Origin: Earliella scabrosa | Lineage: Eukaryota; Basidiomycota; Agaricomycetes; Polyporales; Polyporaceae | DNA length: 64,000 nt | Direction of reading: 5' to 3' | Assembly: GCA_022605405.1 (NCBI GenBank) | Contig: JABYQQ010000017.1 | Span: forward strand, 1-64,000 | Shown: positions 9,939 through 44,951 of the stretch, in pieces | Position numbering within the stretch: the stretch's first letter is position 1 | How the letters are laid out: each line of letters begins with the position of its first letter | Position numbers and translations under genes: made by a program | Notes under the pieces: generated by a model | What the model saw: only the letters and a program-made list of their open reading frames with translations | What the model was told of the DNA's origin: nothing | The model's database searches: none

Positions 9939-10010
9939 CAGTGAATTCAGTTTACGCAGATCATCTGAGCCGCTTAGTTACGGTAAAAGACAACTATTTA
10001 TCTGCCTTAA
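9939..10010 (+). repeat. Left terminal inverted repeat (72 bp)
   Basis: Aligned without gaps to the reverse complement of 44880-44951: 59 of 72 positions agree. The inner 32 bases (9979-10010) differ at one position only and include CGGTAAAAGACAACTATTTA. The outer 40 bases are less conserved but share AGATCATCT and CTTAG. The terminal dinucleotide is CA at both ends. A nearby internal echo, TCAACTATTTCA, occurs at 10014-10025. Confidence 0.92.
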
Positions 10011-10082
10011 GCGTCAACTATTTCACTGCGCGCCTCTGCAACGAGCGTCTCCGCCGCCTTCTCGCCCACTGCATTCCTCCCC

Positions 10083-10960
10083 AAATTATTTGACCCACCA
10101 GGAAATGCTCTCCGGCCCTCATCAAATATCTCACTCCGTCTCACCTCACGCCTCCCACACAGCGTCTAGTGCCATCAAATATTTCACCCACCCGTTCACC
10201 AGGCATCCTGCGGCATTCATGTGCGCGTCACCCCCACTGGGATATTTCATGGACTCTCAAATATTTCACCCCTGCCTGTTCATGCACTCCTCCTGCGCGC
10301 TGACTGCTCCTCAAATAATTGATCCGTCTACATTCATGTGCGCGTCACGCCCAGTCAGATATTTCATCCCTCCTCAAATACTTGAAGCACTCCTCGGGCA
10401 GTGCGCGCCTCCTCCCCGCTCGTCTTCATGACCGGCCCTCAAATATTCCATTGACATGGCTCCATGTGCGTCTGATGCCCAGTGAGCTCTTTCCTCGCTC
10501 CTCAAATATTTCACCACTGCACTTTCCCTGCGCGCCTCCTTGTGCGCCGTCATTTCCCATACTGCCTCTCAAATATTTCATCCATCTCCCCTCCTGTGCG
10601 CGTCATGCACAGTCCCCCATTTCATCCCCTCTCAAATATTTCACCGCTGCAGCGCTGCGCCTCAGATATTCCATCCATCTGGGTTTATGTGCGCGTCGTC
10701 CACAGTCAAATATTTCAACCCACCTCAAATACTTGATAGCGGTGGGCGTCGCGCACCACGCCATCTTGCCCTCTGCCTCCAATATTTTACCCTGGTGCCC
10801 ACTTGATCCATGCGCGTCTCCGGCACCCCAAGCGCTCCCAGTATCAACCGGTGAAACATCTGGGCGCCCTTCAAATATTTGGGCGACCTCCGTGCTCCCC
10901 CACGGTGAGATAACTCACGCACCTCGAATATCTCGGTCTGTCATCTGGCCCCACCAGCGG
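10083..10960 (+). repeat. Left subterminal array of CTCAAATATTTCA motifs
   Basis: About 17 copies or variants of (T/C)CAAATATTTCA are spread over 0.85 kb at spacings of roughly 20-70 bp (for example near 10175, 10257, 10500, 10568, 10631, 10704). Most read in the same direction, with CTC before and CACC or CATC after the core. The same motif appears in reverse complement at the right end. Inverted clusters of short motifs next to the TIRs are typical transposase-binding regions in other large DNA transposon families; that role is inferred here. Frames open through this region (for example 9832-10431) are by-products. Single internal copies also occur near 15428 and 40950. Confidence 0.85.
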
Positions 10961-11098
10961 TCCTCCTCATAGCGTCGCCATCTCTCGCCCATCGATGTGT
11001 CCTGCTATGAGCCAGACAGTGAGTACATGGATGCAGTATGGTATCCCTGACCACACGCCTATTAGCCAGTGCGAACATTCATGCCTGATGACCACTTA

Positions 11099-14000
11099 CT
11101 ACGCTCTCCCCTGTCCCTTCGGATCCAACCCACGAGCCTTCTTGTTCGCCTCCATTACCGTCGTACCATCGTCGTTCTTGCGCTTGAGCGCGTTGCCCTC
11201 GACACCTTCTCCCTGGGGCTCAGCGGAAGGCGTGATGCTCCCCCCGTCTGAAACCACCGCCTGAGCCTCCATGTGGGCGGCGCTGGTCCCGACCCCAGCT
11301 ACTGTCTCTTGCGGGTCATCCTCACGAGCTGTTGATCCCGAGGCGGCGTTCTCCTCCTTTTGCCGTCGGCGAGTCATTCTTGGCTCTCCTACAGGAGGAC
11401 CCGCAGCCTTCCTCTTCCGGGGGGGCCGCTCCTGTGCGTCCGGTGGCAACGCCTCGTTCTGTACCGCGGCGGCGCCGGCCTGGACGATTGCTTCCTCTGC
11501 TCCTCCAGCCTTGCCATCGCCACCTTGTCCCCCACCTCGCCCACGCCCTCCTCTCCCTCCACGGCCTCGCCCTCTACCTCGTCCTCGTCCTCGTCCTCGT
11601 CCCCCTCGCCCTCGCGCGCCGCCTGCGCCCTTGCCTTTCTCCGTTTCTCCGGAAGGCTCCCCGTTCATACCACCCCCCGCCTCCGCCTCCGCCTTCCCCG
11701 GCTCGCCCGCCGCGCGCTCGGGCTGGGCTCCCGCCGTGGCTTCAGCCTCCCGGCTGTCTGGCAGAGGCTCGTTGGGCGCCGTCTCCGCACGCCTCGTGTC
11801 CGGCATGATGGTCCCGGTGTCCGTCGGCGGGGCGTGGCGCGCCCACTCCCCGTCCTCTGCGCTGGGGTCGCTGGGTGGCTGGGCCGTCTCTCTGGCTCGC
11901 TCGCTGCTGGCTTCTGGCTCGCTGGCAGCGGTGTGCTTGCGCTCGGGCTGGGCTCCCGCCGTGGCTTCAGCCTCCCGGCTGTCTGGCAGTGGCTCGTTGG
12001 GCGCCGTCTCCGCACGCCTCGTGTCCGGCATGATGGTCCCGGTGTCCGTCGGCGGGGCGTGGCGCGCCCACTCCCCGTCCTCTGCGCTGGGGTCGCTGGG
12101 TGGCTGGGCCGTCTCTCTGGCTCGCTCGCTGCTGGCTTCTGGCTCGCTGGCAGCGGTGTGCTTAGCCGTGGCGCTAGGCATCGTGCCGCCTGTCTCGCCC
12201 GTCGTCCGCTCGTGGCGTGCGCATCTGACATCGCTTGCCCCAGGCTGGCTCTTGTCGTCGGGCGTCGCTGCCGTCGAGGGCGCCGCGCCTGCTTGCCCGC
12301 CGGTTGCGGAACCGCGGTCTTCCTTGTCATGTAAGCCTTCATTGCGGTTTTCTCCGCACGCGCGCGCGGCGCTCCCATCTCCCGACGGGGTGATGGTTGG
12401 AATGCCGTCCACTGAAGGCGGGCTGGCCGGTGCACCCCGCCCGCGGGACTCCGCCTGCCAGCTCTTCGCCTGCCCGTTGCCGCTCGTTGCCCCGGCTGAG
12501 GGTTCACCGCGTGAGGTTGGTTCGGCCTCCTTTCCCCCGGCCTTGGGCTCGTCCTTCGTGCTCTCGTCGGGCGTACCAACCTCGCTTGATCGGCCACTCC
12601 CGGGGTGTGCGCCGGCAGCAGCTTCTGCCACACCGTTTGCGCGTTGCTCTGAGGTCCGACGGACCTCCTCGGGCCCTGAGGGCACGCTGGCTTGTCCATA
12701 GTGGATGGGAGCGACGTACACATCCGCCTCCTCCTCGTCCTCCTCGGCGATCTCATCCAGGGTCCCTGTAAACGGGTCGCGAGCAGCATACGCGGCACTC
12801 GAGGCTCGGGAAGGAACAGACTGGATGTCGGACCCCGTCGGCGTCGTGGATCGGTAGCGTGGGGTTGGGCTTGCCGGACGTGCTCGACGTCCGCTGGGTG
12901 TTACATTTCGACTCCCTGGGTTCACAGAATTGGCTCGCGAATGGCGAGGCGTCTCATGAACGACCAAAGTGTGATCTTCTTCCTCAGCGGCGCTCTTGAA
13001 GTTGAAAGGGTTGTCGCTGGCTTCCGCCCTCACCAGCGCGTCGTGCAGGGTGTACACTGCAAGGGCACCTTTCTGGGAGAAGAAAGCGTGGAGCAGTGGC
13101 GCCCATTCAGTGTCCACGTAGTCGTTGATGGTCTCCTGCACCGCGTCCCAGTTGAACTCCTCCCGTCCGCACTCCTCTGATTTGCGTCATCAGTCTCCCT
13201 CCCGCTGCACAAGGAACAGCGTGTCCGCTTACCCCATTTCACCTCCAGGTACAGCTTCAGCTTCTCCCGCAGTGTTTGTGGAGGCATCTCTCCAGCTTCT
13301 TCTGGCAACCTCACCTTGCCGTCAACTCCGTAAGGTAGGTCGCGCTGGGGTAAAGCCTCGTCCACTGCCCATCTGTTAGTACCGTTCCCCTCCCGAGTAT
13401 AAGTCTCTCATCTACGCACCTATCACCATGTGGCACCATCTCAAGAAGCGTGCGCCCTCGCTGGCAGGGGTTCCCTCTTCAAACTTGTCGAATGGCACCG
13501 CATTCAGATCTTTGGTGAAACACAGTCTACGCCGGACCATCAGCAACCACGCGCCGCCCACATGCACAGACACACTCACTGAACCTGTTTCAGCTGGCCT
13601 TCCCGGTCTTTGTAACCGTACTTCAGCTCCCCCGCGCACGGACCCAACTGCTTAGGCCCGGTTCCAATCAGGCCCCACAGGAGGTCGAACAGAAGCCATG
13701 GGCCGCCTGGTTGATTTCTGTGGCCAGGGTCAACGACACAGTTCCGACTCCGGATCGCGCATCCGGGCCTCACCTGTAACATTGGTCCGGTGGCTTGACA
13801 CTCTCGGAGGCCGCCCGCGCCTTCCACATATCCTGCTCCAGAGGTTCTAGCGACTGGTAGTCCACCTTCGCTTTGGTTGTCCACACGCCGATGTTCTCAC
13901 CCGGGAACGCCGCACTGATCGCGTCCTTGTGCGCAGTCCAATACACGCGGAACGCGGACTTCGCGCGGGTGTTCAGAGCCTTGGCCAAAGGATTCTTCGC

Positions 14001-14626
14001 CAGCGCCTTCACCCTCGTGCCCTCGTCCATCGCCTCCACCTTCACGACCTCCACGTTGGACTGGTTGTCAGCCGCCGCTACGTTCGCGGCCATGTGGGCG
14101 TCCTCCCCCACGTTCCCAAGTTTGCGCAGCCTCCCGCGATTGTTGTTGAACCAGCTTGCCATGTACTGGCCACACTGGTCAGTCACGCGCTATACTGCAT
14201 TCCCACTCACATACCTGATGCGCCTCTCCAAGCGGTTTTTTCTCGCGGAGTAGGATCTCCTTGAAGCGTTGACACCCCTCTGTCGCTGTGTCGTCGCAAA
14301 ACTTCTTGACCCCGCCATTTTTCGCGTTCTCCTTGGAGATCCGAAGGTATTCCGGATACTTCCCATTCAGCCAGGCACCTATCTCCGGGAACTTGGATGC
14401 CAGGTGCTTGGCGCTGCGATCCTCAGCTATGCGCCTTGTGAGCTATTCCGCTATGCAAGAACATCGTGGTGCACACCGTACCATCCTTCGCTTGGCCCTT
14501 CTTCTTCTTCTTCTTCTTTCCCTTCTTACCCGGCGACGCGCCTATGTGGCCAGCGCGCCGTAAGTACGAGAAGTGAATGGCAACAATGCAACACGCACTG
14601 GTTCCGCTCTGTCCCTCCGTGCTCAT
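11099..14626 (-). CDS. Divergent-HMG domain protein of the KDZ element
   Basis: Minus-strand exons: 14626-14482, 14426-14215, 14165-13774, 13717-13580, 13526-13420, 13364-13233 and 13176-11099, giving 1067 aa in one continuous frame. The first exon (ATG at 14626, ending in a poly-Lys run) is the least certain. Residues ~50-120 hold a helical domain (KHLASKFPEI ... EYLRISKENA). Residues ~120-250 begin YMASWFNNNR and hold an HMG-like block (SAFRVYWTAHKDAI ... LEPLEQDMWKARA). Residues ~250-420 match the gene at 1498 exon by exon (YGYKDREG, YLEVKW, FNWDAVQE). The last exon is disordered, with a duplicated 75-residue unit, an RGG/RG-rich tract and a basic C-terminus. Likely a nuclear DNA-binding partner of the transposase or the TET/JBP enzyme; that role is inferred from the reported KDZ/HMG association. 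Long plus-strand frames over 11271-12701 are antisense by-products. Confidence 0.8.
11714..12163. repeat. Direct duplication of 225 bp inside a coding exon
   Basis: GCGCTCGGGCTGGGCTCCCG starts at 11714 and again at 11939. The following 225 bp are almost identical, with only a few single-base differences. As 225 is divisible by three, the duplication adds 75 residues in frame to the disordered tail of the HMG-type protein. Confidence 0.9.
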
Positions 14627-15579
14627 TGTCCCCGCGCTCATTGTCACTGCGCCCTCGCTTGAAGCTATGCACCCATCCATCAGCATCAGTCCGTAGGCCT
14701 CGGCCGGCTGTGAGCACTGTACACACCGGTGATGTTGTCCCCCCGCCGCGTGGACTCGCCATTAGAGCCCAGGGCTTCCGCTGTATCAAAAGTGCCCCAC
14801 GAGGCTGGGACGTAAATTGATGCACGTCATGTTATGCAAGCCACGCAACTTGAACACGTACCCATGTCTGAGGTTCCCGCAGCGACCGATGTCGATCCAC
14901 TGCTCCCTCCCCACGCGCCATCTGTCATGTTGCTTGCGGCTGTGTGCGCTGCGCCCACACATGAGGACGTTCAGACGCGTCACGGGACTGCCAGGAGACT
15001 TCACGTACGCGTCGTCGCTCCTGCAGCACTCATGCCAGGTCCGTCAGCTCCCCTGCTCCCCCAGTCCACTTGGGCTGTGCAGACACCCCCCACCATGAAC
15101 CCGTCAGTCAGCATCCGCAGCCACAAGCAGCATACAAGGAGGTTAACACGCACGCATGGCCGGTAGGCCCACCGTCTCCGTGGAGGACGCGCTCTCTCGT
15201 CCCCGTCCGGCGTCCCCGTTGCATCCAGTGGCGGGACTGTTTGTGCCGTATTGCTCTTGAGGTGCTGACGACATATGGTGGAGGATGACACGCATGCTGT
15301 CGCCGGTCAAGCAAGAGGGGAAGAATAACGGTCGCGTTGCAAGCGCTCACTCCCGGTCACCTTGGTTTCTCCCCAAAGCCCGCGTCGCGTAGCCTCCAAA
15401 TTTGTCTCCTAGCCTCTTTATCTCACAAAATATTTCATCCTGTCTGGCCTAGCATCCTCCGCGGTATCGCGCAATATTGGGCTATCTCCTCCCATGGCGC
15501 TCACATCGGTTCTCACCCAAAGCTACAAACGCAGGCTGTATGACCAGACGTAAGACGTCAAAGACAGTACAGCGTGCAA
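14627..15579. other. Intergenic stretch, no gene recognised
   Basis: This lies between the start of the HMG-type gene and the stop of the next minus-strand gene. Only short frames without paralogues are open. It should contain the promoter and leader of the HMG-type gene, whose first exon boundary is uncertain. One AAAATATTTCATCC motif at 15428 matches the subterminal repeat. Confidence 0.5.
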
Positions 15580-16713
15580 TCACTCTACATCCACGTCACT
15601 ACGGGCTCTCTTCTTGCCCCGCGCGGCTCGTGATGCCCTTTCCGCTCTAACGCTATCCTCCTCCTCCTCGTCGGACGAGATCACAATAACGCGCGGTTCC
15701 TTCACCTCCGGCTTGGAGCCCGCGCCCTTCGACCCCGCCAAGGTCCCCGTCTTCGATGCGTCCTTCTGGCCATCGTGCGGCTGGGCTGCGCGCACATATG
15801 CCAGAAACCCGGGAAGGTTCTCGCTCCCTGGGCGCAGACACAGCGGCACGGTCTCTTGAACGTGGTTATGCAACCCGTGAGCGAGGAGCATGCCAGTCTT
15901 GCGCAGAATGACCCCTTCCCCCGGTCTCAGGCGTATCTCCTCCGGCTGCCCAAAGGTCATCCACTTTTCCACGAATGGATCGTACCTCTGGATGTCGTCC
16001 GTCAGGGTAGGCGACCACACATCCAGACCCAGAGGGACGCAGATCACCTCCTGACGGATCTCCATGACCGTATTCTCCCCGTGCTCCAGCCCCACAGCCT
16101 TCAACACCGTCGGTGGCTGGCCGTCCTGCGGTGGCATCCGCGTTCAGACCAAGATTTCCCCGAGCAAACCAAGAGATACCCGCACCTCGTAGTACGCCAC
16201 CACTGACACCAGAACCTTCCTCTCATTCCCCGCTGGCCCCGGGGCGGCCCTCACGCGCACCTCCGCAGGACGCATCGCAGGAGGCAGCCCTAAGGCATTC
16301 AGCTTGACGGCGGTGAGCAGGCACCACTGCTGGAAGTTGGCCGGGTACCCTTCCGGAGGCGGGCACATTGCGGCAATCTCAGTGAGAAAGGCCGCGCGCT
16401 CCTGGTGGGAGAACTGGAAGGCGAGTAGCTGCCCGTGACCGTCGCACTTCTCGTTCGCACGATTGCCTCCACACTGACTTGGTCAGAGCCCGACATGCAC
16501 CACGAACGAGCTATCACTCACCCGCTCCACCAGTCGCGCAATGGATTCAAAGTTCTCGTCGCCCGCATGCGCGGTTGTATAGTGCTCCCCACCGACGGGG
16601 CAAGGGCGATAGTACCGCTCGAACGCCCGGCTGGAAGGTGTGTAACGATGGAATAGGGCCCGCACACGACTGTCCACCTTGGCTTTAACAATGTCCCCAG
16701 AGTATGGAGCCAT
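15580..16713 (-). CDS. Orphan accessory protein with SUMO-interaction-like tail (copy 1)
   Basis: Minus-strand exons 16713-16522, 16473-16186 and 16125-15580 give 341 aa. Start ATG at 16713 (MAPYSGDIVK). Visible marks: VDSRVRALFHRY near the N-terminus; a Cys/His-containing middle that opens with CGGNRANEKC and includes QQWCLLTAVKLN; then RLRPGEGVILRKTGM. The C-terminal 50 residues contain VIVISSDEEEED, a hydrophobic core plus acidic run like a SUMO-interacting motif, followed by KKRARSD, a likely nuclear signal. The gene at 18018-19175 has the same three-exon layout and about the same length, so the two form a paralogous pair. No known domain is recognised. Nuclear location is inferred. Alternative: the acidic motif may be a generic acidic patch. 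Confidence 0.72.
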
Positions 16714-19175: not shown

Positions 19176-20308
19176 GGCCAAAGAAGGGAGCGAGACAAGG
19201 GAGCGAGGAGGTTGGGACGCAGCGCCAGCGTGCGGAAGAGTTGGCAGGGATGGAAAATGGGGAAGGAGCTGGAAGCGCGTGCCTTGGAGGGACTAGGATC
19301 ACCTTGGGGAGCGCTTCCCGAGATTCAATCTGCGAATCCGGCGCCGTTGGAGAGCTCGGGCAGCCTCGGGCGTGGTACGGGCCCGCCGCCCGCCATCACC
19401 GGGGTCTCGTTTTTCCTGAATGTGGCCGGCTAGCGGGCTGTCCCAATGGCCCGCCGGGGCGCGCTAAGCCACTTCAGCGGGCGACGGCATCAATTGAGGC
19501 CCCAAGTCAGATCCCTGTCCGTTATGGCCAGATGTATCCATCGTGGACAGGGCCAGCCACGAGGCTACGGGGCGTCATGGACGAAGGATCTCAGTCGATG
19601 TGCGACGCGAAGTCAACCCATGACGCCGCAGGATAAAACCAAGAACAAGCAATTCATTGGTTCCCTGGAGATCCTACGCCATAGCGCGCGACGCGCGCAC
19701 CACCCTGTCTTCCCGTTCTCTGCCGTCCCAATGCCACCTTCTTGTGGCACGCTGCCACGGTAACACCTTCGATCCAGCGGAGGTCATGTTCGGGCACCTT
19801 GCTTCGCTGTCATACATATGGACCCACAGTGCCACATATTACGGCACTCACCTTCTCTCCCACCCTCTCGCTCCTTCTCTACCGAGAGCGCGCGCTGGGT
19901 GCTGCTGGCCGAGGCACCTGTTCATAGCCGGGACATCGTTGGGAAAGGAAGAGTGTGCCGCAGCGCCCATGTTCATCTTGCGCGCGTGGGAGCACCATGG
20001 GCGCGCGATTCCCTCGACGCCCGCGCTACTTCTCCTTACGCTTCGCATCCCTTCGTCGAGGTGAGTTGGTTATACAAGCACTAGCCCCGTGGCTCCACCA
20101 GCTGATATCCTCTAGAAACCTGCTCAAATTCATCCCACCGCCTCGGTCAGTGAGCGCGCAGTGACTGCCGTGTGATTCCACTTACACGTGTTGTCACTCT
20201 CTGCCAGATTTCCATGGAACCACACCGTGCACCCGCATGCACCCCCTCCAACGGTAAGAGGCGCGATGTCTATCACCGTCATCTGTTAGTCCTCCGCATA
20301 TCTGCAAG
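19176..20308. other. Region upstream of the gene at 20309; possible extra exons
   Basis: Several donor/acceptor pairs occur between 20060 and 20290 (GTGAGT at 20061, CTCTAG before 20116, GTAAGA at 20252). One in-frame path (ATG CAC CCC near 20236, spliced to 20289) extends the next gene by about a dozen residues. I could not confirm a longer model. The rest shows no gene. Confidence 0.35.
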
Positions 20309-22455
20309 ATGCTCATGTCCCGCCTGACAGAGCCGCTCCCCGATGATCCCTTGGTGCACGTGCGCGCGTGGGCGCGGTTCTGCCGGGCAGACCAAGGGAT
20401 GATCGCCCTCTGCTCTCCCAACATGGATTTTATCCCCCGGATCGTTCAAGGGGATGTATCACTTACCCTGATGAGCGACGGTCGCTTTGGTATACTGGAC
20501 CCGATTTTGTGGCCACAGATCCACTCCGACCAATACGCCTATCTCGCGGCAGTTCGCAAAACCGTTCCCTGCCACCATCGGGCCGCCGCTATGTGGCTTG
20601 ACCCCACTCCGGACGACTTTCAAGAGCTGACCGGCACACCTGTGCGCGGGTTAGGCTTCTTCGCTCCCACCTACGTCGCCCACCTGGATCAACTGGTCCA
20701 GTCCATCCTGGGCGAAGTCCGCCTTTTACAATTCTCAACCCCCGGCACCAGCCACGGCCACGCTTCGGTTGCCTGGCATGAGTTGTGCATGCGTCAGGCT
20801 CTCTCCCGCCTTCAAGTCATCCCCGCTACCTTCCGCGATCAGTCGATCCAGGTGCGCGTCCTTCAACGCCATTGGATCATGACCGAAGCCTTCCTGGAGT
20901 TCAACCGTCTTCTTCAAGACGACGAGCGAGCATGTGCGCCTCTGCCCCTGCAGGCTGACATGATGGGCGCATGGACGACCAATCCCCAGGTTGTTCACCA
21001 ATACATCCGTCTCGGGTTGCCGGTCTGGTTTCTGCGTCGCGAGCTGCACGCCCCAGTTGCCTCCGAGTCCCCGATCCCTTCTAGCTTGGAACCCGTGTCA
21101 CCATCCCACATCTGCTCTGAGCCCCTGGTGCCCGGGTGCGTGCTATACCATGGGCTGGCCGGGGACGGACACCTTCGTCAGACAATTCGCCGCGCCCATC
21201 CCTATCTAGACATCTCACCGAATGTGACAGTGTCTAACCCAGTAGCCTCGTCGGCCATCCCACCCGCGCCACTTCCCACTAGACAAGTTAGAAAGGAGTA
21301 TGCGGCGCGCGCCGCCTTGTTAGGACTCAGGTCCCAGCCCGCTGAGTCTGCGCCCTTCAGCCCCAACCCCAGCGGTGAGTCCGCCGGCCCCCCATTCACA
21401 ATGTCACAGTACCAACGTCAACTTTCACCGATCGGTCTCTCACAGATCCCCGTACATCTCCCACTCTATCTGCCGGTGATTTACCGGCCCCCCCGACCTC
21501 TCCCAAACCAGTCAAAGCGCGTGGGTCGCCCCGCACGCGCGCTCGCCGGTCCGGGGCTGGTGCCACTGGGCGAGACAAGTTTGGGCGTTATGCACACCCC
21601 TGGATGCCGGACCCTATTCCGTCTTGGGAGCACGCTTTGGAGAAGGCGCGCGCCATTCCGCCTTGGCCGGATTGCACCTTCCCTTGGGGATACTGGGTTC
21701 CCGAGCCCGCCATGCTCGTGGGACCTCGCGAACAGGATCGTCAGTCGCGGTACTTGTTGAATTGGCTCCGCGCTCGCCCAGTGTGGCTCACCAAGCTCAA
21801 CCAACCGCAAAGCCGGCCCAGCGCCGTGCCCACCCAGCATTGGCGCAGCTTCCTGAATGGCATGCCGGACGATCTGTCCGTAGCGACAAAGACCGGCAAG
21901 CGTTACTTCGAGCTCAAGCAGCTCTTTGATGGGCTTTGCGAAGACTCCGCTCTGGACCCTGACGCTACCGGTCCTGTGCAATGGCATGGCCATCAAATCT
22001 CCGAAATCTCCCCGCAAACGGCATGTTGGGTCCTTTGGGAATGTCATGAGCTGGCCTTCAGGTACGAGTTGCAAGCTCTCGATCGCTTGCTGCGGCCGGC
22101 GGAGCGGGACGACGACGAAGCCCTCCGCCATGAGCGGCTAGCTCCCGTGTTTCCCCGACGTAGTCTCCACGCCGTCGCGGAGCTCCCGGGCAACTACGCA
22201 TTTGGCCTGTTCGCGCGCCTTCCTCATCGCCGGGTCAACTCGCTCAACGCCCTCCGCGAAGTACTGTCTCCATGGCCGATGAGTCCTCCTGAGCTGCGGG
22301 CTATGGAACCACTACAGCTGCGCGACAGTGAGGACTACATCCTGGAAAGGGAGGCGTGTCTGGCTTCTTTCTATGTCTCCACATTTGTCAAATATGCAGG
22401 CCGCCCCCCAATAGTCCCCCACTATATTCCTCTGCAACCATGTAATCTAGACTGA
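20309..22455 (+). CDS. Orphan Agaricomycete protein of the KDZ cargo
   Basis: Exons 20309-21374 and 21446-22455, joined in frame at G|GTGAGT...CACAG|AT, give 691 aa. It is rich in aromatic residues and has no membrane segment or known catalytic motif. Marks include MGAWTTNPQVVHQY followed by GLPVWFLRRE. A Pro/Ser/Arg-rich linker spans the intron, and the C-terminal third starts DKFGRYAHPW and contains WRSFLNGMPD. From memory, proteins with a similar 'contact...GLPVWFLR' block are frequent uncharacterised families in Agaricomycete genomes. It precedes the transposase by 168 bp on the same strand. ATG at 20309 is the first in the open frame; a short upstream exon is possible. Confidence 0.72.
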
Positions 22456-26730: not shown

Positions 26731-26756
26731 TTGGTACGGTAGCTGTGCGCAAAGGA

Positions 26757-34644: not shown

Positions 34645-35461
34645 ATGGACGAACGCACTCAGACTTCTCTCATCGCGACAGTCCGTGAGGAAGCGCGGTA
34701 CAGGCCCGGCAGCCGGGTTCCGGTGGGCGAGCTGGAGTACGCCGTGAAATTCACCTGGGGCAAGATCCACATGCACGTAAGTATCACAGTGTCCATGGCC
34801 GCCCATTGTTGACCCTCGGGTCAGGTTTGGCTGTTCCTGCATGGGCCAACGGATGTCGCGCGACGGACGCTAGCTCGCAGCCTGGTCGCGTTGCATTGCA
34901 AAACGCTACATGAAGCCCACAAGATCCCGTTGGACTTGTGGCTTATGCTGCGCGATCTGCACTTCATCGTGCTCGCGATTCACGGTGACCTTGACGAGAG
35001 GGACGAGGCAGTTGTGGAGGTGTTCTTGGCGCTCATCCGCTACTTCACTCCTCACGCGGTCCTCTGGCCGTCGAATGTCCTTGAGCACGGGGACCAAGAC
35101 TTCACGGCCACACTCGCCGCCATCGTGAACTGGGCGAAGCAGCGGCTCGATAGAGTGAGTGCCATGCGAGCTGGGTTTGCCGAAGCGAGCTCACAATTGC
35201 GCTCAGATTCGCTTCCGCCACGGGCCTATTTTTGAAGACATCGCGCTCAAGGGGTATCGAGACATGGTCGGGCGTGAGCCACCCACAGCCGAGAAGGGCG
35301 TGCAAGCCGGTAGCCCGGACGAGCCGGAAAGGGAGGAGGAACGGTTGCAGGTGGGGCCTCTCAGGGGACCATGGAGGGTACAAGGACCACTGCCGGCTTT
35401 CCCCCAGGGCGTGCATCCGGGAGAGTTTCCTCTACCCGTGCGCGTCGAGTCTTCCCTGTAG
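34645..35461 (+). CDS. Orphan accessory protein, tandem family member 2
   Basis: Exons 34645-34776, 34825-35154 and 35207-35461 give 238 aa. Start MDERTQTSLIATVREE was chosen because it aligns with MFQRIQTSFIATVRDD of the preceding gene; an in-frame ATG at 34600 would add 15 residues. Shared blocks: KIPLDLWLMLRDLHFIVLAIH, LALIRYFTPHAV, QDFTATLAAIVNWAK, then IRFRHGPIFED. It is clearly a tandem duplicate of the gene at 33660, older than recent because identity is patchy. Function unknown. Confidence 0.72.
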
Positions 35462-35606
35462 TTAGCGGGTGTACTGACGCTGGTGCCACGTGCCCACGCG
35501 CGCGGCGGCCGCGTGCGCGTGTTGCTCACGTGATGGGAAACCAATGCAAAGCAGCAACTGGGGATCGTAGACGCACGGCCCGATTGCAACAACCCCGTCG
35601 CCGTCG

Positions 35607-36511
35607 ATGCCTACGTCGTACGTGTTCACCACCGAGGCCGACAAAGTCCCGCTGGGGCTGGCGCATCTGGGGGCGCTGTCCCCACTTCACGTGTTCACCT
35701 ACGCGCGTTGGCCCAGCGAGAACTCCTCGTCCGGGCCCGAGGCCACCGCCGATGAGGTGCGATACTACATCAGGATAAATCGTCTGCCGCGACGCATCAA
35801 TGTAAGCAATGTTTGCTTGTTCTCTGGTAGCTGGGGCTGACACACAAATCCAGATCCCACTATGCCTTCACGGATTCAGCTGGAACGACGGCCACATCTA
35901 CGACGTGATCCTGCTGCTGTTGGCTTCAGATTATCTGAAACTGCCAGCGAGGGACACGGAGTGGATGTCAGAGCTAGTGCTGTTCCTGCGGGCGCAATGG
36001 TCGCGCGAGCGCGATTGCGGAGAGCCGATTGTGTGGGGGTTCTTCCGCGCGAAGATGATCCAGATGACAGCGGACACCTGCGAAGGAGAGCCGGCCGACA
36101 CCCGCCAGCAGATTCAACGCCTGGTGAGGTGGACCAAGTCCCATCTACCGGTGGTGCGTACGGCGCGCCCGCAACTCAAGACATCCGGCTGACCTGTTAC
36201 AGGGACTTTTCCAATACGAAGGCGCCACTACGAAAGGCATAGCGAAAGCGACGGCGGAGGTGGCGCAGACCAAACGTTACCGCGACGTTGGGACGCACAC
36301 GGAAGAGGCGTTCTGTGGAGTGGAGACGGAGGGGCGGTACTGGTTGACGCGCTACCCGGAGCCTAAGCCGGTCGACGACGGCTGGCTGTCCGCGGTTTGG
36401 ACTGATGACGATCCTCGCGAACGCGGAGGTCTGCGAGTCGTCCACAAACCCGAGATCCCAGTCCTGCTGGCCGTCAGTGGCTCTCGCGGGTATCCCTCGT
36501 ACGATGATTAG
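35607..36511 (+). CDS. Orphan accessory protein, tandem family member 3 (diverged)
   Basis: Exons 35607-35801, 35854-36153 and 36203-36511 give 267 aa (start MPTSYVFTTEADK). It keeps the three-exon plan of the two genes before it: a ~60-codon first exon ending in a charged strand, a 100-codon helical middle (HIYDVILLLLASDY ... LVRWTKSHLPV) and a third exon beginning near a Phe-Gln-Tyr. Sequence identity to the others is low, so family membership rests on layout, order and a few positions (end of exon 2, VNWAK/VRWTK). Function unknown. Confidence 0.65.
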
Positions 36512-36639
36512 CTTGTATCTAGACACCGCGCCTAGCGGACTTGGGCTGCAGCCGAGATCGCCTCTCTCCGATTCCAAATACGCGATGCGCATGAGCTGGC
36601 GCGCCGAACGTTGCACAAGCTTCCCTTCCTTGACCTTCG

Positions 36640-37390
36640 ATGGGGCCGCCGCTCTATAGTGTCCGCCTGCGCGAGCGGGAGACAGCAAATCTGGCCAGAG
36701 TCGAGCCGGACGCCAGCGATACACCTCCCCCTCTGAGCCCGGACGACGGGAGAGATTCGCCACCGCCTCTCATGCCAGTGGACGGGAGAGACTCTCCTCC
36801 ACCTCTCGTGGGTCCCGCTGAACCAGGGCGGATGGATGGCGAGAACGTAGACCGCATGTGGGCGGCCACATCATGGGCGGTGCCATGGCGCGAGGGACCA
36901 TTACACGATGGAGGCGAGAACGGCGCTACCAGCGGGACGGAGGAGAATGTGGACGGCGGAACGACCGGGGGCGTCCACGTGAACTGGGGAAGGGTCGAGG
37001 CTTTCCGGGCCTGGGCGAATAGGCGGGTGGATGTAAGTGCCATCTATGCTCTGTGGAGAGTGCACCCGCTCTAACTCCAACTAGGAAGTCGGTTCCATCG
37101 GTGCCGGGGAACACGTCCCCTTCGATGTGAGTTCCTGAGCCGCAGGTTCGCAGTGAGGGGAACTAACGGGAGACAATTTGGGTGTAATCTGCGCAACATT
37201 AGATGGGAGCACGTTATATCCATGTAGACCGCCACATTGCATCGGCGCTCAGAAGATTGAGACTGGCAAGATTGGGGGCGAGGTCTCAGCGTCTGGCTGA
37301 GGAACTTGACGTTATCGAGGTGAGGAAGCCGACTTTGTCCTTCGCGAGGTGCCGTCCCACTGAATGCAGGTGGCAGACGGAGATGAATAG
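36640..37390 (+). CDS. Small Pro/Asp-rich orphan protein
   Basis: Four exons, 36640-37032, 37085-37126, 37203-37319 and 37370-37390, give 190 aa in frame. If the last intron is retained the frame stops at 37433 instead. The N-terminal half has three imperfect units of the form PPPL(S/M/V)...DGRDS. A short conserved-looking block (NWGRVEAFRAWANRRVD) ends exon 1, and exon 3 is Arg/Leu-rich and helical (SALRRLRLARLGARSQRLAEEL). No known family. It follows the tandem trio on the same strand by 128 bp. Confidence 0.55.
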
Positions 37391-38426
37391 ACTGCTACAC
37401 GAACAAAACCCGGTTGAGCAACCCGGTCGCTAAGCCTTTGGCCTAATAGAATACAGTAGACTGAACTATGCCGCACGGACGGAGATCGTGTGTGCGCGAA
37501 GTACGCGGACTCCACGCCTAACTGCGTATGGGGCATGGTGACACAGGAGAATGGCAGAAGCGGTGCGCTGAAGTTGGAGTGCTTCGGGGGGTGGGCGGGG
37601 CGCACTGTTGAAGACAGGAGCACGGGGGATTACAGGTGGAACCCGCGCACCAGTCCTGTGTCGGGCTGACGCGGAGCTCAAATGAGTGCCCGCTGGGCTC
37701 TGCTGCGGGGACATCGGGACGGCACCGGCATGGTGTGAGTGGGCCGCTCGCAGGAGTAGCGCGTGGATTGGAGACGGAGGAACCGCCGGGTGACTCCTTG
37801 GTCGGGACAAGATAGCGAGATGCGCTAACAGCTGGGAGACCGGATTCTGAACTCTGCGCCGAGCGGGTTAGGACGACGTGGGCATGACAGCGCGCCGTGC
37901 AACCATGGCTCAAATGCTCTGGTCCAGGGACGTCTTCCGGCGGGATGGATCCTGCGAGTGGCCCTACCCAAGGACATTTCCGGCACATAGGTAGCGTGGA
38001 GCTGCTACTACCCAGCAGCGCGGGATTTGGGTGAGCGACATGGCATTGTTGCGGATTCGGCACCAGAATGACCTGCGCCCACCGCGGCGCCCCCTGGTAG
38101 TGTGGCAAGGTTACATGACGGTCATCAGTCCCGGACTTCACGGTGGGCGTCGTGAACGTGCAGGTAGGCGCTGCTCCCACGAGGTGGCGGGCACGCAGTT
38201 CTTGCATTGGCTAACAGAGCGAAAATGGATGAGAATGAGCTAACAAAGACAGAGTGTTGTAGATGGCGCTGCCGAGGAAGATGGAGCAACAAAGCACACT
38301 GGACATCGTGAAAGCAAGAGAAGGAAACACGGACGGGGAAAAGCAGCATCGACAAAGCGGATAGAAAGCAAAGCGAGGCGGAGGCGAGAGCAGGGACAAC
38401 AAGAAGGCGTGCGACGTATGGACGAA
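37391..38426. other. Gene-poor stretch, nothing recognised
   Basis: A minus-strand frame is open over 37518-38207, but its composition (Ser/Pro/Cys/His without helices) and the lack of splice logic argue against a protein. I assign no gene. Confidence 0.4.
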
Positions 38427-38962
38427 CTACGAGCGAGTGAGTAGTGCTAAAACGGTCTCATAATCGAGGCCGTAGAGCTCTTGAAGCCGCAGGGCCACGC
38501 TAGGAACGTGTAGGAAGGACGGCAGTGAGTGCGAACTCGAAACCAAATGGTGGAGATACTGACTAGCGCTGATCAGTGTGTGCGAGAAGGCCGGTTTTGG
38601 GCTGGGGAGGGGTGAGTGGGAGGGGGCTGCGGCCGGGGCTGACAACTTACCTGGATCAATGAGAGCCTCGCCCGCGACAACTGCGGAGGAGGGACGAAGA
38701 GGCGTGTCGAGCCTCGAACGTTGACGAGCTCGAACTGGGCCGCACCCATGGCCTAGAGGAGGGATTGCATGATGGAGGGGGACGGGCTGTGCTGGAAAAT
38801 GGAACTCACCTGGAGGAAAGAACGCCAAGTGAGAAACCTCGGCGCGACACCTCGGCGAAACAACGCCGCAAAAACCTGAGTGCCGAAAAGATCAGTGCCA
38901 AGCAGGAGGGTGCGGGCCGAAAGGAGGACACCAACAAGAGCGTGGTGGTGGGCAGAAGGCAT
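38427..38962 (-). CDS. Micro-gene, 90 aa, five exons (copy 1)
   Basis: Minus-strand exons 38962-38936, 38875-38810, 38752-38651, 38568-38564 (5 nt) and 38499-38427. The model was solved by comparison with the copy at 41547-42069: exon lengths are 27/30, 66/66, 102/102, 5/5 and 73/73, and the frame closes only with the 5-nt microexon. Aligned residues include MPSAHH / MPSGHR, VFAALFRRG / IFARLFGHS, LTWRSFLQAMGAA / IRWAAFTQAMSAA, LFVPPPQL / RFLPPASL, RYVA / KYIA, and YGLDYETVLALL / HGVDLSIVQRLL. Basic and probably helical; nucleic-acid binding would be a guess. Introns are 53-85 bp, normal for this genome. Confidence 0.62.
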
Positions 38963-39309
38963 GGCGGAGCAGCAGGCACGAGATTGAAGGAGAATGGCGA
39001 AGGATGGCCGGCGGAGCGCAGCAGCGGGGATCGAGAGTGCAAGCCAGAGAGTCAGAGGGAGAGGACAGAAGACGACGGTGAGGGGCAACCTGACGCCAGC
39101 GGGAAGGCCACGACGCGGGATTGGTGAGCGGCTGCCGCCCGCTTGGATCCCCAACGCCTCTTGCCTCCGCACCACGCACGCCTCTTGCGGCCGCACCAAG
39201 CACGCCTCTCGACTCCGCACGCCGTTCTTGACAGTTAGGGTCCCAGCAGGAGCGCTGCCAAGAGAACACTGGAGATAGGCTGGCAACGGCGGAGGAAGGG
39301 GAAGGAAGG

Positions 39310-40330
39310 GGAAGGGTATGAGGTGAGTGCTATCCTGCACGCCCTCAGCACCCTCCCGACGCGTCCGACACGCCCTCTACGACTGATTGGACGTGTACAC
39401 GTCCTTCTCGACGACCTACACGGCGAAATCCACGCGACGCCGCCCTCGTCGACCCCCTGCTTGGTGTCGTACCCCCCGCCCCGACGCGCGCACGCCCTCC
39501 ACCACCCCTGTCCGCCCCTGTGCACCCTCCGGACGCGTGTACACGGCCTGTTCGACCACCTACACGACGAGAGCGCCCTGCGCACCCTGGCGACGCGTCT
39601 GACACGCCCTCTACGGGTCCGACACGTCCTCTGCGACGGATTGGACGTGTACACGCCCTCTTCTACCACCTACATGACGAGATCCACGCGACACGGCGCT
39701 CCTCCACGCCCTCCTCCAACGACTGGAGTCTTACCCACCGCCCCGACGCGTGCACGCCCTCCACCACTCCAGTCCGCCCTGTGCACCCTCCGGACACGTC
39801 CTGCGCGTCCTGCGCGCCCTCCGCACCCTCCCGACGCGTCCGACACGGCCTCGACGACGGATTGGACGCGAACACGCCCTCCTCGACCACGTCAACACCG
39901 CTGTGCGCCCTCTTCCCCCTCCGGACGCGTCCGACACACCCTCTGGACGCGTCCTGCATGTCCTCTAGGACGGATTGGACGTACACGCCCTCCTCCACAC
40001 CTCCACGACGGTCCTCAACGCCCTCTTCCAACGACGGCAGTCCTATTCGCTGCCCCGACGCGCCCACGTCCTCCACCACCCCTGCGCGCGATGCTCGACG
40101 TGTACACGTCCTCGTGGCCGCGTATCCGCCGCCCTCGACGCCCTGTACGACCAAATCAACGCGTCCACGTCCACGTCCACACGTCCACGCCCTGGTCCGT
40201 GCGTATCCTCAGCCCGCGAGGCCCTGTACCACCAAATGGGTGCGTACACGCGCTCCAGACTGCGTACACGCCGCGGCGACGTGTATGCGCACCGCTCGAG
40301 GCGTATGAGACCTGCTGAACGCACCCTCCA
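39310..40330. repeat. Degenerate GC-rich higher-order repeat
   Basis: Phrases recur at irregular distance: CGACGCG(C/T)GCACGCCCTCCACCA near 39482, 39743 and (changed) 40056; GATTGGACG(T/C)G(T/A)ACACG near 39392, 39640, 39861 and 39972. This suggests three or four decayed copies of a unit of about 250-300 bp built from shorter CGCCCTC(C/T)NCGAC steps, akin to the 40-bp array further right. Long frames on both strands follow from the composition. Confidence 0.75.
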
Positions 40331-41546
40331 CGCCACCTCCAGTGGTACACGCGGTCAGGACCCTTGTCCGGCCTCTCTTACGGGAGGGTGAGCTGCGGAC
40401 GTTGTCCACGCACACGGCAATCGCTCGAGCCGTGTCCTGCCCAACGACGCGTCTCTTCGCGGCATCACAGTGCCTACAGGGCGGGCGGGATCGGTGACTG
40501 CAGCCTGCGACGGGGCGTGGACGACCTCACCTCGGGCGACGTGCATGTCAGTCGCAGCTCGGGGACGCATCGGCCGTTGGGCCTGGACGGGCAGACTGGG
40601 TCTTCAACACGACAAGTGAGTTGATCGTCTGGCCTGGCTTGTCTGACTGGCTCCGAGGGTGCATTCTGGGCTAGCGGTGCTAGGATGACCCCGTCAGCGG
40701 CTGCGCGGCACACCGGACAAAAGGCGCGTACGCCGTCCGCGAGGCATCTCCGGGCTCAGGGAGGGGTCGCTTGCTCAGCAACGTGGTCTGGACGTCGGCT
40801 ATCCATGCTTGACGCGGGGGACAGGAGCTGCGCAGCGGGGACTGCAGCGTCGAAGGAGCCAGATATTCGACCAAAGCGCCGCGGGGATGTACGGTGAGCG
40901 GTAGTACAAGCTTGAGATATTTGACCAATGGCGCTGTATGGATCAAATATTTCACTCCAAATCATCCGCCAGGATTTGACCGAGGTAGAGACGTATGTCT
41001 CTGGGCGAGTGCTTGTGTCGCACTCCACGACACGTCTGTCCCCCTCGTGGACAGGTCTCCAGGCTTCTCGACGCCCGTCGGCCCGCCACATCCCGCGGCG
41101 CACATCGACGACACCTCGGCATCCTCAACAACGCGTCCGGAAGCTGGTCGATGCTCGTGCGCCAACCCAAAGCACGTCCGCGCGCTGCGCGGCACGTCTC
41201 CCTTTTCAAGACACGGCTGCAACGCGCCGTCTACCCGGCGTATCTGCCGTTGTCAGCGCGTACACCTACACGACCGTCCGTGCGCGTCCTCGTGAATGAG
41301 TCACGGTGCGCCCTCACGCGCCGTACGCGTCCGCGTCAACGCGCGGCCGTGCTTGATCCAGGTTAAAGAGCGTCCGCTGTACACCCAGTGTGCGAAGGGT
41401 TGCAGAACGCACGGAGCGCGCTTTGAGGGGCGGATCCAGAAGGACCATGGTAACGGGCAGCACACCGACGAACAGGGTGAGATTCAAGATGGTGATCACA
41501 AAGCTGGAGGCAACACGACTAAACTACGGAACGATGTATGGACGGG
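40331..41546. other. No recognised gene
   Basis: GC-rich sequence with short frames on both strands. Around 40910-40965 two AAATATTT-like motifs (GAGATATTTGACC, TCAAATATTTCACTCC) repeat the subterminal motif. Fragments of the CGACGCGTCC type continue to about 41350. Confidence 0.45.
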
Positions 41547-42069
41547 CTAACCACGACGAAGGAGGCGTTGAACGATGGACAAATCAACGCCATGGTGCGC
41601 TTGCAGGACCCCGGCTATGCTGGGCGTAGTGTCAAACAACGACAAGAGAAGGCGAGGAGCAGTTGGGCTGACTATTTCTGAGTGGGTCTGTCTAGCAAAC
41701 CATGCTTAGGCTTGAGGGGCGTCAGTGGCAGTGAGAGGGAGCGAGGTAGCAGAGGATCTTACCTGAAAAAATGAGACTTTTGTCTGACCCAAGGAAGCCG
41801 GAGGGAGAAAACGCCGTTTGAGACCACGCCCATGCTGGACTCGATATCCGGCGGCGCTCATGGCCTATAGGCAATGTGGTAGCAGGGAAGGGCGTGGAAC
41901 GGACGGACTTACCTGGGTAAAGGCGGCCCACCGGATGAATGTCGGAGTGGAGGAGTGGCCGAAGAGCCGAGCGAAGATCTGAACAAGGGAACATCATCAA
42001 TGGGCAGATATTGCCAGTGCCAAGAGGCAGGAGACTGACCTGGAGGTGAAGACGGTGGCCGGACGGCAT
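41547..42069 (-). CDS. Micro-gene, 91 aa, five exons (copy 2)
   Basis: Minus-strand exons 42069-42040, 41978-41913, 41864-41763, 41677-41673 (5 nt) and 41619-41547. All exon sizes except the first equal those of the copy at 38427-38962, and splice borders are canonical (GTCAGT, GTAAGT, GTAAGA, GTCAGC donors). It encodes MPSGHRLHLQ, then a helical, Arg-rich chain ending LSIVQRLLRRG. Retained frame and conserved splice sites in two diverged copies argue for selection on a protein. No family recognised. Confidence 0.62.
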
Positions 42070-42544
42070 AGCGATGACGGATTACAAGACAGCAAGTAGA
42101 GAGCTAGGGCGAGCGTGCAGACAGCAGAAAGAAAGCGACTGAGAAAGCGAGAGGAGCCAGATAGGAAGTATGGAGAAAGGTGGCCAGAGGAGGTAGCCGT
42201 GGGGACGCCAGCACAACGTTGATATGTACGCGCGCGTGACCGCGACGTTGTGCACGCCCACACGCACGCAACTTGACCGGCTGTCCCTTCCTTGGCTACC
42301 GCCCACCCTCCCGATTCGAAGCCACGACCGGAGATACCGAGTGGATACTAACAGGCCGAGCTCGGACGGGGTAGGAGGGCAGAGCGGGGAGGAAAAGAAC
42401 AGGTAAGTTCCTTTTGGCCTTGCTTCAATACCGTCGCTCCGTGCCGCCCCCTGCCAACGTCCTGCCCTCGTTTGCCCACTCCTACCCGCGTTTGCTCGAC
42501 GGGTCGATGCCGCCCACGACACGTCTCCGCCCCTCGGTCGCGTG

Positions 42545-43857
42545 CATAACCGGTGTACGCCCTCCACGACCCCTCTCTGGTGTCCACGACGCGTCTCCGA
42601 CCTCCACGACCCGTCTGTCGTGTGTCAGACGCGTCCCGGCCCTCCACGACGCGTCTCCGATGCCTCTCTCCTGTCTCAGAGGCGTCTGCGCCCTCCTCGA
42701 CCCGTCTGACGCGTACCATACGCGTCCCCGCCCTCCACGACCTCTCTCTCGCGTACAACACGTGTCCCCGCCCTCCACGACCTCTCTTTCGTGTGCACAA
42801 CACGTCCCCGCCCTCCTCGACCTCTCTCTCGCGTACAACACGCGTCCCCGCCCTCCTCGACCCCTCTCTCGCGTACAAGACGCGTCCCCGCCCTCCTCGA
42901 CCCGTCTCACGCGTGCACGACGGGTGTCCGCCCTCCTCGACCTCTCTCTCGCGTACAAGACGCGTCCCCGCCCTCCTCGACCCCTCTCTCGCGTACAAGA
43001 CGCGTCCCCGCCCTCCTCGACCCGTCTCACGCGTGCACGACGGGTGTCCGCCCTCCTCGACCTCTCTCTCGCGCACCACACGCGTCCCCGCCCTCCTCGA
43101 CCCCTCTCTCGCGTACCACACGCGTCCCCGCCCTCCTCGACCCCTCTCTCGCGTACCATACGCGTCCCCGCCCTCCACGACCTCTCTCTCGCGTACAACA
43201 CGCGTCCCCGCCCTCCTCGACCCCTCTCTCGCGTACAAGACGCGTCCCCGCCCTCCTCGACCCGTCTCACGCGTGCACGACGGGTGTCCGCCCTCCTCGA
43301 CCCCTCTCTCGCGTACCATACGCGTCCCCGCCCTCCACGACCTCTCTTTCGTGTGCACAACACGTCCCCGCCCTCCTCGACCTCTCTCTCGCGTACAAGA
43401 CGCGTCCCCGCCCTCCTCGACCCTTCTCTCGCGTACAAGACGCGTCCCCGCCCTCCTCGACCCGTCTCACGCGTGCACGACGGGTGTCCGCCCTCCTCGA
43501 CCTCTCTCTCGCGTACAAGACGCGTCCCCGCCCTCCTCGACCCCTCTCTCGCGTGCACGACGGGTGTCCGCCCTCCTCGACCTCTCTCTCGCGCACCACA
43601 CGCGTCCCCGCCCTCCTCGACCCGTCTCTCGCGTACCATACGCGTCCCCGCCCTCCACGACCTCTCTCTCGCGTACAACACGCGTCCCCGCCCTCCTCGA
43701 CCCCTCTCTCGCGTACAAGACGCGTCCCCGCCCTCCACGACCTCTCTCTCGCGTACAACACGTGTCCCCGCCCTCCACGACCTCTCTTTCGTGTGCACAA
43801 CACGTCCCCGCCCTCCTCGACCTCTCTCTCGCGTACAAGACGCGTCCCCGCCCTCCC
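42545..43857. repeat. 40-bp minisatellite, about 33 copies
   Basis: The unit has the form CGCGTCCCCGCCCTCCTCGA followed by CCCCTCTCTCGCGTACAAGA, with a few variant classes (GTCTCACGCGTGCACGACGG, TCTTTCGTGTGCACAACA). Variants recur in blocks of three units (for example 42961-43080), showing higher-order amplification. Three units equal 120 bp, so long frames stay open on both strands; they are not genes. The array lies about 1.1 kb inside the right end of the element. Confidence 0.95.
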
Positions 43858-44360
43858 ACCCTCGTCAACATGTCCACAACCACGACATGTCCGCCCGCAG
43901 CGCAGCCCCGTGGCGCACTGCATGCCAGCTCCCGGGCTCTGTCTCCTGCACGACAGGTGTCAGGCCGAGACGCGTTTCTGGCGTCGAAGGCGGGTCTGCG
44001 ATCTCGACTCCGCCACGTCCACCCTCGTCGACGCTTCTGTAGCCTGCACGCCCCGCCTGGCCCTCCACGACAGCTCTCTCGCCTGCACGAGGTGTCTGCG
44101 AGCAACAGGCGACCTCAACGACGTGTCTGCGACCACCACGCCGGGACTCCGGCCTCCACGACCGGCTGCGAGTGCAACGACGGAACTCGGACACCTGGCC
44201 GCCTCTCGCCCTCCGCGAGGTGTCTGGCTGGCTCTCATTGCAAGCAACACCCTGTCTGCACCCTCGACTCGGACGCGTGTCCACGCGGGTCAACGCGCGT
44301 GCGTCTGCACACTGGTCGACGCGCGTGCGCGATCCAAACCCGGTACGCGCCCTTCACGGT
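43858..44360. repeat. Diverged flank of the minisatellite
   Basis: CGTCNNNG and CCTCCACGAC steps continue with loss of the 40-bp period up to the first right subterminal motif at about 44364. No gene is seen. Confidence 0.55.
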
Positions 44361-44363
44361 TAG

Positions 44364-44800
44364 AAATATTTGATGCAGGCGGAGACGAGCAAGAGGGAAA
44401 AATATTTGACATGTCACAAGAGTAGATACAGTGTTACGTCAGCGGTAGGAAATATTTGAGACAAGAAGAGCAATGGCTTGGAGATACAGCGCCGGACGAC
44501 CTATGTACGGATGAAATAATTGACTGAGCGAGAGAGCGGCGGCTACAGAAAGTTCAAATATTTGAATGCGGAGGAGCGTGTGCCGATGTAGGGTAGAGCA
44601 TTGGCAAGGCTGAATGGAGGAAGGAAATATTTGAGGGTGTCGTGCAAATATTTGAAGGGAGCGTGCGCAAGAGGGGAAATATTTGGACGTAGAGACTGCC
44701 GTGCAGCGCGACCAGAGTTGGGGATGAAATATTTGAGGAACAGTGAACTAAGCAGAGAGTGAGCTCGCGGCGGTGAGAGAGGCGTGAAATATTTGAGACG
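44364..44800 (-). repeat. Right subterminal array of GAAATATTTGAG motifs
   Basis: About ten copies of G(A/G)AAATATTTGA(G/C) occur in 430 bp (near 44364, 44398, 44449, 44556, 44626, 44646, 44677, 44726, 44787, with a variant AAATAATTGA at 44514). This is the reverse complement of the left array motif, so the two arrays point in opposite directions. A further echo of the TIR motif AGATGATCTGAG lies at 44855-44866. Confidence 0.85.
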
Positions 44801-44879
44801 GGTGGAGGAATGAGCTGAGGGTGTGCTGGGGTGTAGAGCGCCGTAGGGAGGAGCCAGATGATCTGAGGGCGGTCTAATG

Positions 44880-44951
44880 TTAAGGCGGATAAATAGTTGT
44901 CTTTTACCGTAGCTAAGCCGGTGAGATGATCTGACTTAACTGATACAAGTG
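44880..44951 (-). repeat. Right terminal inverted repeat (72 bp)
   Basis: The reverse complement begins CACTTGTATCAGTT and pairs with 9939-10010. The 32 inner bases match at 31 positions. The outermost base 44951 abuts the second copy of GTATGCG. Because the host gene frame runs into the TIR, a minus-strand read-through would add 12 residues (HLYQLSQIISPA) before a stop at 44913. Confidence 0.92.

Follow-up and report, generated by a model that had tools for sequence, protein, structure and literature searches.

A Bounded 35-kb KDZ-Superfamily Transposon Carrying a TET/JBP-Type Gene and a Recurring Gene Set in Earliella scabrosa

Ends of the Element and the Interrupted Host Gene

The DNA considered here (hereafter the window) comprises the first 64,000 nucleotides, read on the forward strand, of contig JABYQQ010000017.1 of the polypore Earliella scabrosa (assembly GCA_022605405.1). 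At positions 9939-44951 lies one complete transposable element of 35,013 bp, which has CA..TG ends, is flanked on either side by GTATGCG, and carries a KDZ transposase together with a predicted TET/JBP-type dioxygenase and further genes. Its ends, and the host gene into which it is inserted, are arranged as follows.

9932..9938: left copy of the 7-bp target duplication, GTATGCG
9939..10010, plus strand: left terminal inverted repeat, starting CAGTGAATTCAG; same end in the copies on contigs C26, C23, C1 and C29
10175..10880, minus strand: left subterminal array of seven exact AAATATTTGA sites, all on the minus strand
44364..44796, plus strand: right subterminal array of exact AAATATTTGA sites, eight on the plus strand and one on the minus strand
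44880..44951, minus strand: right terminal inverted repeat, finishing CTGATACAAGTG; same end in the copies on contigs C26, C23, C1 and C6
44952..44958: right copy of the 7-bp target duplication, GTATGCG
9442..9938, minus strand: 3' part of the host gene interrupted by the element, from paralogue alignment
44952..46427, minus strand: 5' part of the same interrupted gene, from paralogue alignment

Of the 726 window pairs with both CA/TG ends and a common 7-bp duplication, the two ends of the element show the best inverted match (59/72); the runner-up scores 31/72, and the top pair of each shuffled window reaches 30 to 33 (five shuffles). Seventeen sites of the subterminal motif AAATATTTGA are present in the window, as compared with 0.01 expected from 100 shuffles, with seven sites at the left, nine at the right and one in the interior at 40943. 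Its orientation is opposite at the two ends, the only off-pattern sites being the single minus-strand one in the right array and the internal one.

The interrupted gene, which we take to encode a beta-lactamase/LACTB-like protein, has a paralogue at 58286-60271, about 14 kb away and in the opposite orientation. Continuity of the host frame was judged by comparing each flank separately with this paralogue, which matches the right flank from 46427 to 44952 and resumes at the same residues at the left flank from 9937 to 9442, the two alignments overlapping by two residues within the 7-bp duplication. The original prediction had placed the boundaries at 9939 and 44951, and on these the terminal repeats, the target duplication, the inverted arrays and the interrupted host frame all agree.

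Further Copies in the Genome

To look for copies, the left 122 bases and the right 602 bases of the element were used as queries against the genome that contains the window (51.7 Mb, 48 contigs); they were found at no fewer than 34 and 32 places, respectively. Four more insertions with identical end bases were recovered, three of them complete and one split across two contig ends.

C26:141735-183967: complete copy, 42,233 bp, duplication TCACAGT
C23:301765-344897: complete copy, 43,133 bp, duplication CGACAGA
C1:4007931-4049023: complete copy, 41,093 bp, duplication GAGACGG
C29:460712-463161 and C6:2637734-2655327: halves at contig ends, both flanked by GTGCAAC

The two halves are read as one insertion split by the assembly because GTGCAAC occurs at both, the middle of this copy lying outside the sequence seen. 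Including the window element, five insertions therefore show five different 7-bp duplications and the same boundary bases at 10/10 ends. The earlier proposal that the whole interval is the unit of mobility is borne out by these copies, and among the full-size copies found in the genome search none ends at other internal termini.

The extra length of the copies consists mostly of nested insertions, amounting to 8.4 kb in C26 and 6.5 kb in C1, and in C23 to a 6.5-kb long terminal repeat (LTR) retrotransposon plus about 0.7 kb. This retrotransposon occupies C23:335029-341555, and its 579-bp LTRs are 99.8% identical. The split copy likewise bears a 2.9-kb insertion at C6:2650725-2653635, which is almost entirely palindromic (94% self-inverse along its length) and sits at window position 29430-29437 with about 8 bases of overlap at the insertion point.

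Two short copies were checked, the rest being taken from coordinates only. The one on C10, of 1,363 bp, is internally deleted and has its own 7-bp duplication, CCACGCG, which suggests movement in trans; for the 378-bp copy on C15, no 7-bp duplication was found on checking.

Gene Content

The genes recognized between the ends are given below, their models having been built from substitutions between copies and from homology, with approximate exon limits. C19, C17 and C20 denote contigs with related bounded elements, described further on; dN/dS is the ratio of nonsynonymous to synonymous substitution rates.

11102..14800 (5' limit approximate), minus strand: gene A, multi-exon, with a large charged last exon at 11102-13186 and an HMG-box-like stretch near 13803-14156; C19 and C20 homology
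15583..16482, minus strand: gene B2, paralogue of B1, exons partly modelled; B1 and B2 match one C19 gene
18021..19292, minus strand: gene B1, exons partly modelled; C19 homology
20258..22452, plus strand: gene C, 637 amino acids in the deposited model P0002 (C8Q76DRAFT_629713); homology and dN/dS
22985..26599, plus strand: KDZ transposase with CxC2 cysteine cluster, exon limits approximate; PF18803, PF18758 and C19 homology
26650..27931, minus strand: predicted TET/JBP-type dioxygenase, catalytic exon 26763-27323; profile, C19 homology and dN/dS
32046..33377, minus strand: gene H, Lys/Glu-rich, with a C-terminal cysteine cluster; dN/dS and copies
33851..34243, plus strand: gene G2, tandem paralogue of G1 (48% identical), with one stop in frame and unsure exon limits
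34645..35461, plus strand: gene G1; weak match in the C20 element
35571..36508, plus strand: gene F; C19 homology and dN/dS

Pfam scans covered 30 proteins from chosen open reading frames, rather than all six frames, and among these 30 only KDZ and CxC2 scored above cut-off, with no host metabolic family. The KDZ domain (PF18758) is matched at E 8.2e-25 and 88.2 bits (cut-off 26.6) and CxC2 (PF18803) at E 1.3e-25 and 90.1 bits (cut-off 27), in keeping with the transposase first proposed for this locus.

The proposed TET/JBP enzyme was likewise upheld, through a profile of three sequences. The catalytic exon from the window alone matches CcTet at E 0.02 and is not listed at E<=1 with PF12851; that family does match the exons of C19 (E 1.2e-5) and C20 (E 9.2e-6), in both cases below its curated cut-off. 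The profile built from the window, C19 and C20 exons finds four PDB TET sequences at E 9.1e-7 to 5.7e-5, with the next matches at E 0.7 and 0.89 and nothing but the four TETs below 0.5; the HxD motif is aligned at the level of residues 93-95 of the catalytic exon. By this sequence comparison, the assignment of the predicted gene to the TET/JBP dioxygenases is confirmed.

For the HMG-type protein the outcome is divided. The HMG_box profile gives no window match at E<=1, and gene A itself has no Pfam match; its C19 orthologue reaches E 0.0036, below cut-off, and window gene A aligns with the C19 HMG frame at a score of 66 versus at most 53 in 200 shuffles. In the genome, 28 HMG_box matches were listed (16 above cut-off, 12 below), of which those within 15 kb of a KDZ match number 0/16 above cut-off and 9/12 below it, C19 gene A included. 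Gene A may thus be a diverged HMG-like protein, an assignment made via its orthologue and not proven, so the prediction gains weak support from C19 and none from a match in the window itself. A 225-bp tandem duplication, 99% identical, lies within the last exon of this gene at window positions 11714-12163.

Besides the transposase, the TET gene and the HMG-like gene, homology and/or dN/dS support about seven predicted coding units (B2, B1, C, H, G2, G1 and F); some ten further spliced genes had been proposed, and that count is upheld only in part. Gene F matches C19 at E 1.9e-6 in its first exon and E 0.007 in its second, and relatives of gene H comprise the family copies and two partial relatives elsewhere.

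Selection was gauged by dN/dS between the window and the other copies, exon by exon, and most exon-by-copy comparisons fall below 1. For gene H the ratio is 0.27 to 0.32 (four copies); the TET catalytic exon ranges from 0.20 to 0.39, exon 1 of gene C from 0.24 to 0.43, the last exon of gene A from 0.37 to 0.56 and the KDZ exons, where computable and non-zero, from 0.03 to 0.37; gene F gives mostly 0-0.27, with F1 at 0.84 against C26, and the G1 and B values of 0.49 to 0.65 derive from few changes.

Related KDZ Families and Shared Gene Order

Three other bounded KDZ elements, representing two further inverted-repeat families, were found in the same genome, each with a 7-bp duplication (3/3).

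C19:350975-375912: 24.9 kb, duplication GTGGTCC, inverted match 66/72
C17:1173151-1210897: 37.7 kb (may include nested insertions; seen at its ends only, 600 bases), duplication CTGAGAC; C19's repeat family, ends 87% identical
C20:156392-177914: 21.5 kb, duplication TGGCCGC, inverted match 63/72

Relative to the window, the C19 element has homologues of A, B, C, KDZ, TET and F with the order kept, and in the C20 element A and TET were recognized, together with a weak match to G, in the parts of its sequence that were covered; gene A in C17 is known only through a below-cut-off HMG match. At the window and at 6/6 other gene-B loci, B lies upstream of C and C upstream of KDZ with relative strands fixed, and TET follows in 5/7 of these loci (window, C19, C17, C20 and C6, but not listed for C42 and C32); C6:1118-1126 kb, C42 and C32 are counted here as KDZ loci whose ends are not fixed.

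Across the genome, 129 KDZ matches merge into 83 loci (within 3 kb), so that the share of sequence no more than 10 kb from a KDZ match is 3.2% at most. Within that distance are found 6/6 gene-B matches, 10/25 gene-C matches and 26/47 TET matches (E<=1), the gene-B and gene-C counts leaving out four family matches each.

The C20 family has a subterminal 8-mer of its own, GATTATCT, present ten times at the left and six times at the right within 1 kb; in the same test, the C19 family yielded no 8-mer common to both ends. Every KDZ family may own a separate binding motif.

Variable Segment and Mosaic Structure

Toward its right end the element includes two further features.

36890..42500: variable segment, exchanged or strongly diverged between copies
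42558..43856: minisatellite with a 40-bp unit in 32 copies

Per-kilobase identity to the window is 97 to 99.7% in three copies over 13.9-28.9 kb, and 80.6 to 99.4% over about 29-36.9 kb; near 36.9 kb, homology breaks with C26, C1 and C6 and falls to 79% with C23. Over 29.4-36.9 kb, C26 is nearest to C6 (95.9%), with C1 at 90.6%, and beyond 36.9 kb it matches C1 at 92.4% over 2.9 kb and C6 at only 72% over 0.7 kb. Because the nearest relative of C26 switches from C6 to C1 past 36.9 kb, these incongruent identities point to probable exchange between copies, confined to about 36.9-42.5 kb of the element.

Codon-phase skew was detected at 38381-38530 in two comparisons (p<0.01 and p<0.05), as well as at 41831-42130 when the pair of near-identical C23 duplicates was compared (p<0.05), and the remainder of the segment gave no codon-phase signal in between-copy comparisons; a small gene inside the segment is possible. 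Comparison of open reading frames was also tried as a coding test of the segment and was set aside as uninformative, homologous DNA being alike in all frames.

Comparison with Known Systems

Iyer et al. in 2014 reportedly described KDZ, TET/JBP and HMG genes side by side; here, that association is found inside bounded elements and with further conserved genes. Starships of the Pezizomycotina are mobile elements that combine a tyrosine recombinase captain with host cargo. The window element resembles them, as far as the sources covered in part allow, in being a large bounded mobile element with many genes, but differs in having a KDZ transposase and an element-specific gene set.

Kyakuja elements are described, in the available parts of the source, as having 7-bp duplications, 5'-CA..TG-3' ends and TET (Kojima 2025, PMC12730594). 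The present element is like the TET-containing Kyakuja of Agaricomycetes in its KDZ transposase, its AG-type TET association and its presence in Polyporales (PMC12730594, in part). A 7-bp duplication as in Kyakuja accompanies 5/5 window-family insertions, 3/3 other-family elements and 1/2 short copies, and CA..TG termini are likewise shared by the window family and the elements of the other families, such ends having been a search condition for the window/C19 and C20 boundary calls. Two Laccaria Kyakuja families are stated in the same available text to be without inverted repeats (Kojima 2025, PMC12730594), whereas clear ones occur here (59/72 in the window, 66/72 in C19 and 63/72 in C20). Duplications, termini and TET thus fit a Kyakuja-like element, and the inverted repeats do not. 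In the main-text parts of Kojima 2025 (PMC12730594), HMG and cargo have 0 occurrences each, and giant sizes are unmentioned.

Algal KDZ elements reach 30.3 kb in Ectocarpus and 31.7 kb in Chlamydomonas, where transposition has been seen, and accessory genes of fungal KDZ elements are mentioned as well, with Iyer et al. 2014 cited for them, in the parts available (PMC12477816). These algal giants share with the window element a KDZ transposase, a size of about 30 kb, extra genes and nested insertions; they differ in host, and the same parts mention neither TET nor a common gene order (PMC12477816). The novelty of scale first suggested for this locus is reduced accordingly by the two algal sizes, while in the literature covered (partial, supplements aside) no bounded fungal KDZ element this large with such a gene set was found. 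Cryptococcus KDZ1-3, according to the available parts of their description, measure 9.2 to 11 kb, have inverted repeats and were shown to move (PMC12810828); fungal KDZ identity and inverted repeats are common to both systems, but the Cryptococcus elements carry CxC1 rather than CxC2, make 4 to 8 bp duplications and are smaller (PMC12810828).

Interpretation

Taken together, the locus very probably holds an autonomous KDZ-superfamily DNA transposon of the cut-and-paste type, Kyakuja-like and some 35 kb in length, that has entered a hydrolase-like gene of the host and is equipped with a self-serving backbone. Movement of the whole unit by its own transposase is strongly supported from anatomy. 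Judged by sequence comparison, genes A, B, C and TET have the look of a backbone belonging to the element rather than of Starship-like host cargo, because they recur with KDZ, order kept, across different inverted repeats, and because no host metabolic family appears among the Pfam-scanned proteins.

Several observations weigh against this interpretation. Transposition itself was not observed; B, C, F, G and H are proteins of no known function, H and G have no clear counterpart in the C19 element, and structure predictions of the TET exon and of gene C were unusable (predicted local distance difference test scores of 34.7 and 35.7, respectively). Moreover, TET exon 2 against C23 gives a dN/dS of 1.33, with five changes only; gene B offers few changes and two values that are not computable; and in-frame stops occur in the A, B2 and KDZ exons of the C23 copy and in G1 of C6. 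Gene C is not exclusive to KDZ elements, because 15/25 of its relatives lie away from KDZ matches and 4/10 gene-C/KDZ pairs (C14, C2, C10 and C35) are arranged otherwise.

A Starship-like cargo ship, whose transposase would collect and carry host genes useful to the fungus, was weighed on account of the element's size, its full boundaries and the segment that differs between copies, and it is considered improbable: gene order is common to different families, gene B is found only in KDZ loci, the 30 proteins scanned from chosen open reading frames show no tyrosine recombinase and nothing above cut-off but KDZ and CxC2, and codon-phase signals in the variable segment are few. The original prediction had compared the element in scale with giant cargo carriers that use a different transposase; a reading as a Starship-like cargo carrier is not supported for most of the interval, which looks like recurring KDZ backbone with only about 36.9-42.5 kb exchanged.

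The many orphan genes without known function, and a size in the viral range, would also suit a large DNA virus or virus-like element with borrowed KDZ ends; a partial screen of the same 30 proteins, made without a viral profile library, gave no capsid, polymerase, protease or ATPase family, and such an origin is very improbable. A composite, in which two shorter KDZ ends flank ordinary host DNA that moved once and was then segmentally duplicated, can appeal to the short copies with the same ends, but the 7-bp duplications, which differ among all five insertions, contradict it, and the unit encloses the transposase along with genes that recur in other KDZ elements; this account is scarcely credible.

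For the autonomous KDZ transposon preferred here, the KDZ/CxC2 transposase would mobilize all of the intervening DNA by binding both the terminal repeats and the AAATATTTGA arrays near the ends. The TET/JBP enzyme could oxidise 5-methylcytosine on the element, which would thereby stay expressed, and the HMG-like A together with the element-specific B, C, F, G and H might help in the synapsis of distant ends, in target choice or against silencing. The 5-kb slot at about 36.9-42.5 kb may turn over through recombination between copies. In a wider and speculative reading, which we regard as unlikely, KDZ giants would be the basidiomycete counterpart of modular cargo elements, with a conserved backbone for mobility and anti-silencing (A, B, C, KDZ and TET) and one exchangeable slot near 36.9-42.5 kb, copies trading contents by recombination in a plasmid-like evolution within one genome, and host genes being able to enter the slot.

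The element is accordingly an unusually large and well-resolved member of the known KDZ superfamily rather than a new kind. That TET and KDZ genes adjoin in fungi was already known; what is added here is a mobile unit delimited to the single base, present in five insertions and accompanied by three bounded elements from other families. A testable backbone can be named in which a demethylase-like enzyme is accompanied by element-specific genes, B foremost and C and A after it. It offers a defined system for studying how DNA transposons of large size evade methylation and by what means two ends separated by 35 kb come to meet. Annotation of KDZ elements that goes no further than the transposase and TET may leave the greater part of the element unrecorded.

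Gene-C Relatives Away from KDZ Elements

The KDZ-distant relatives of gene C may be a host-resident family or element remnants. Plavaka was considered as their source and rejected, none of the 15 lying within 20 kb of a listed Plavaka match. These 15 matches are distributed over contigs C11, C13, C14, C10, C9, C5, C3, C2, C8, C12 and C6.

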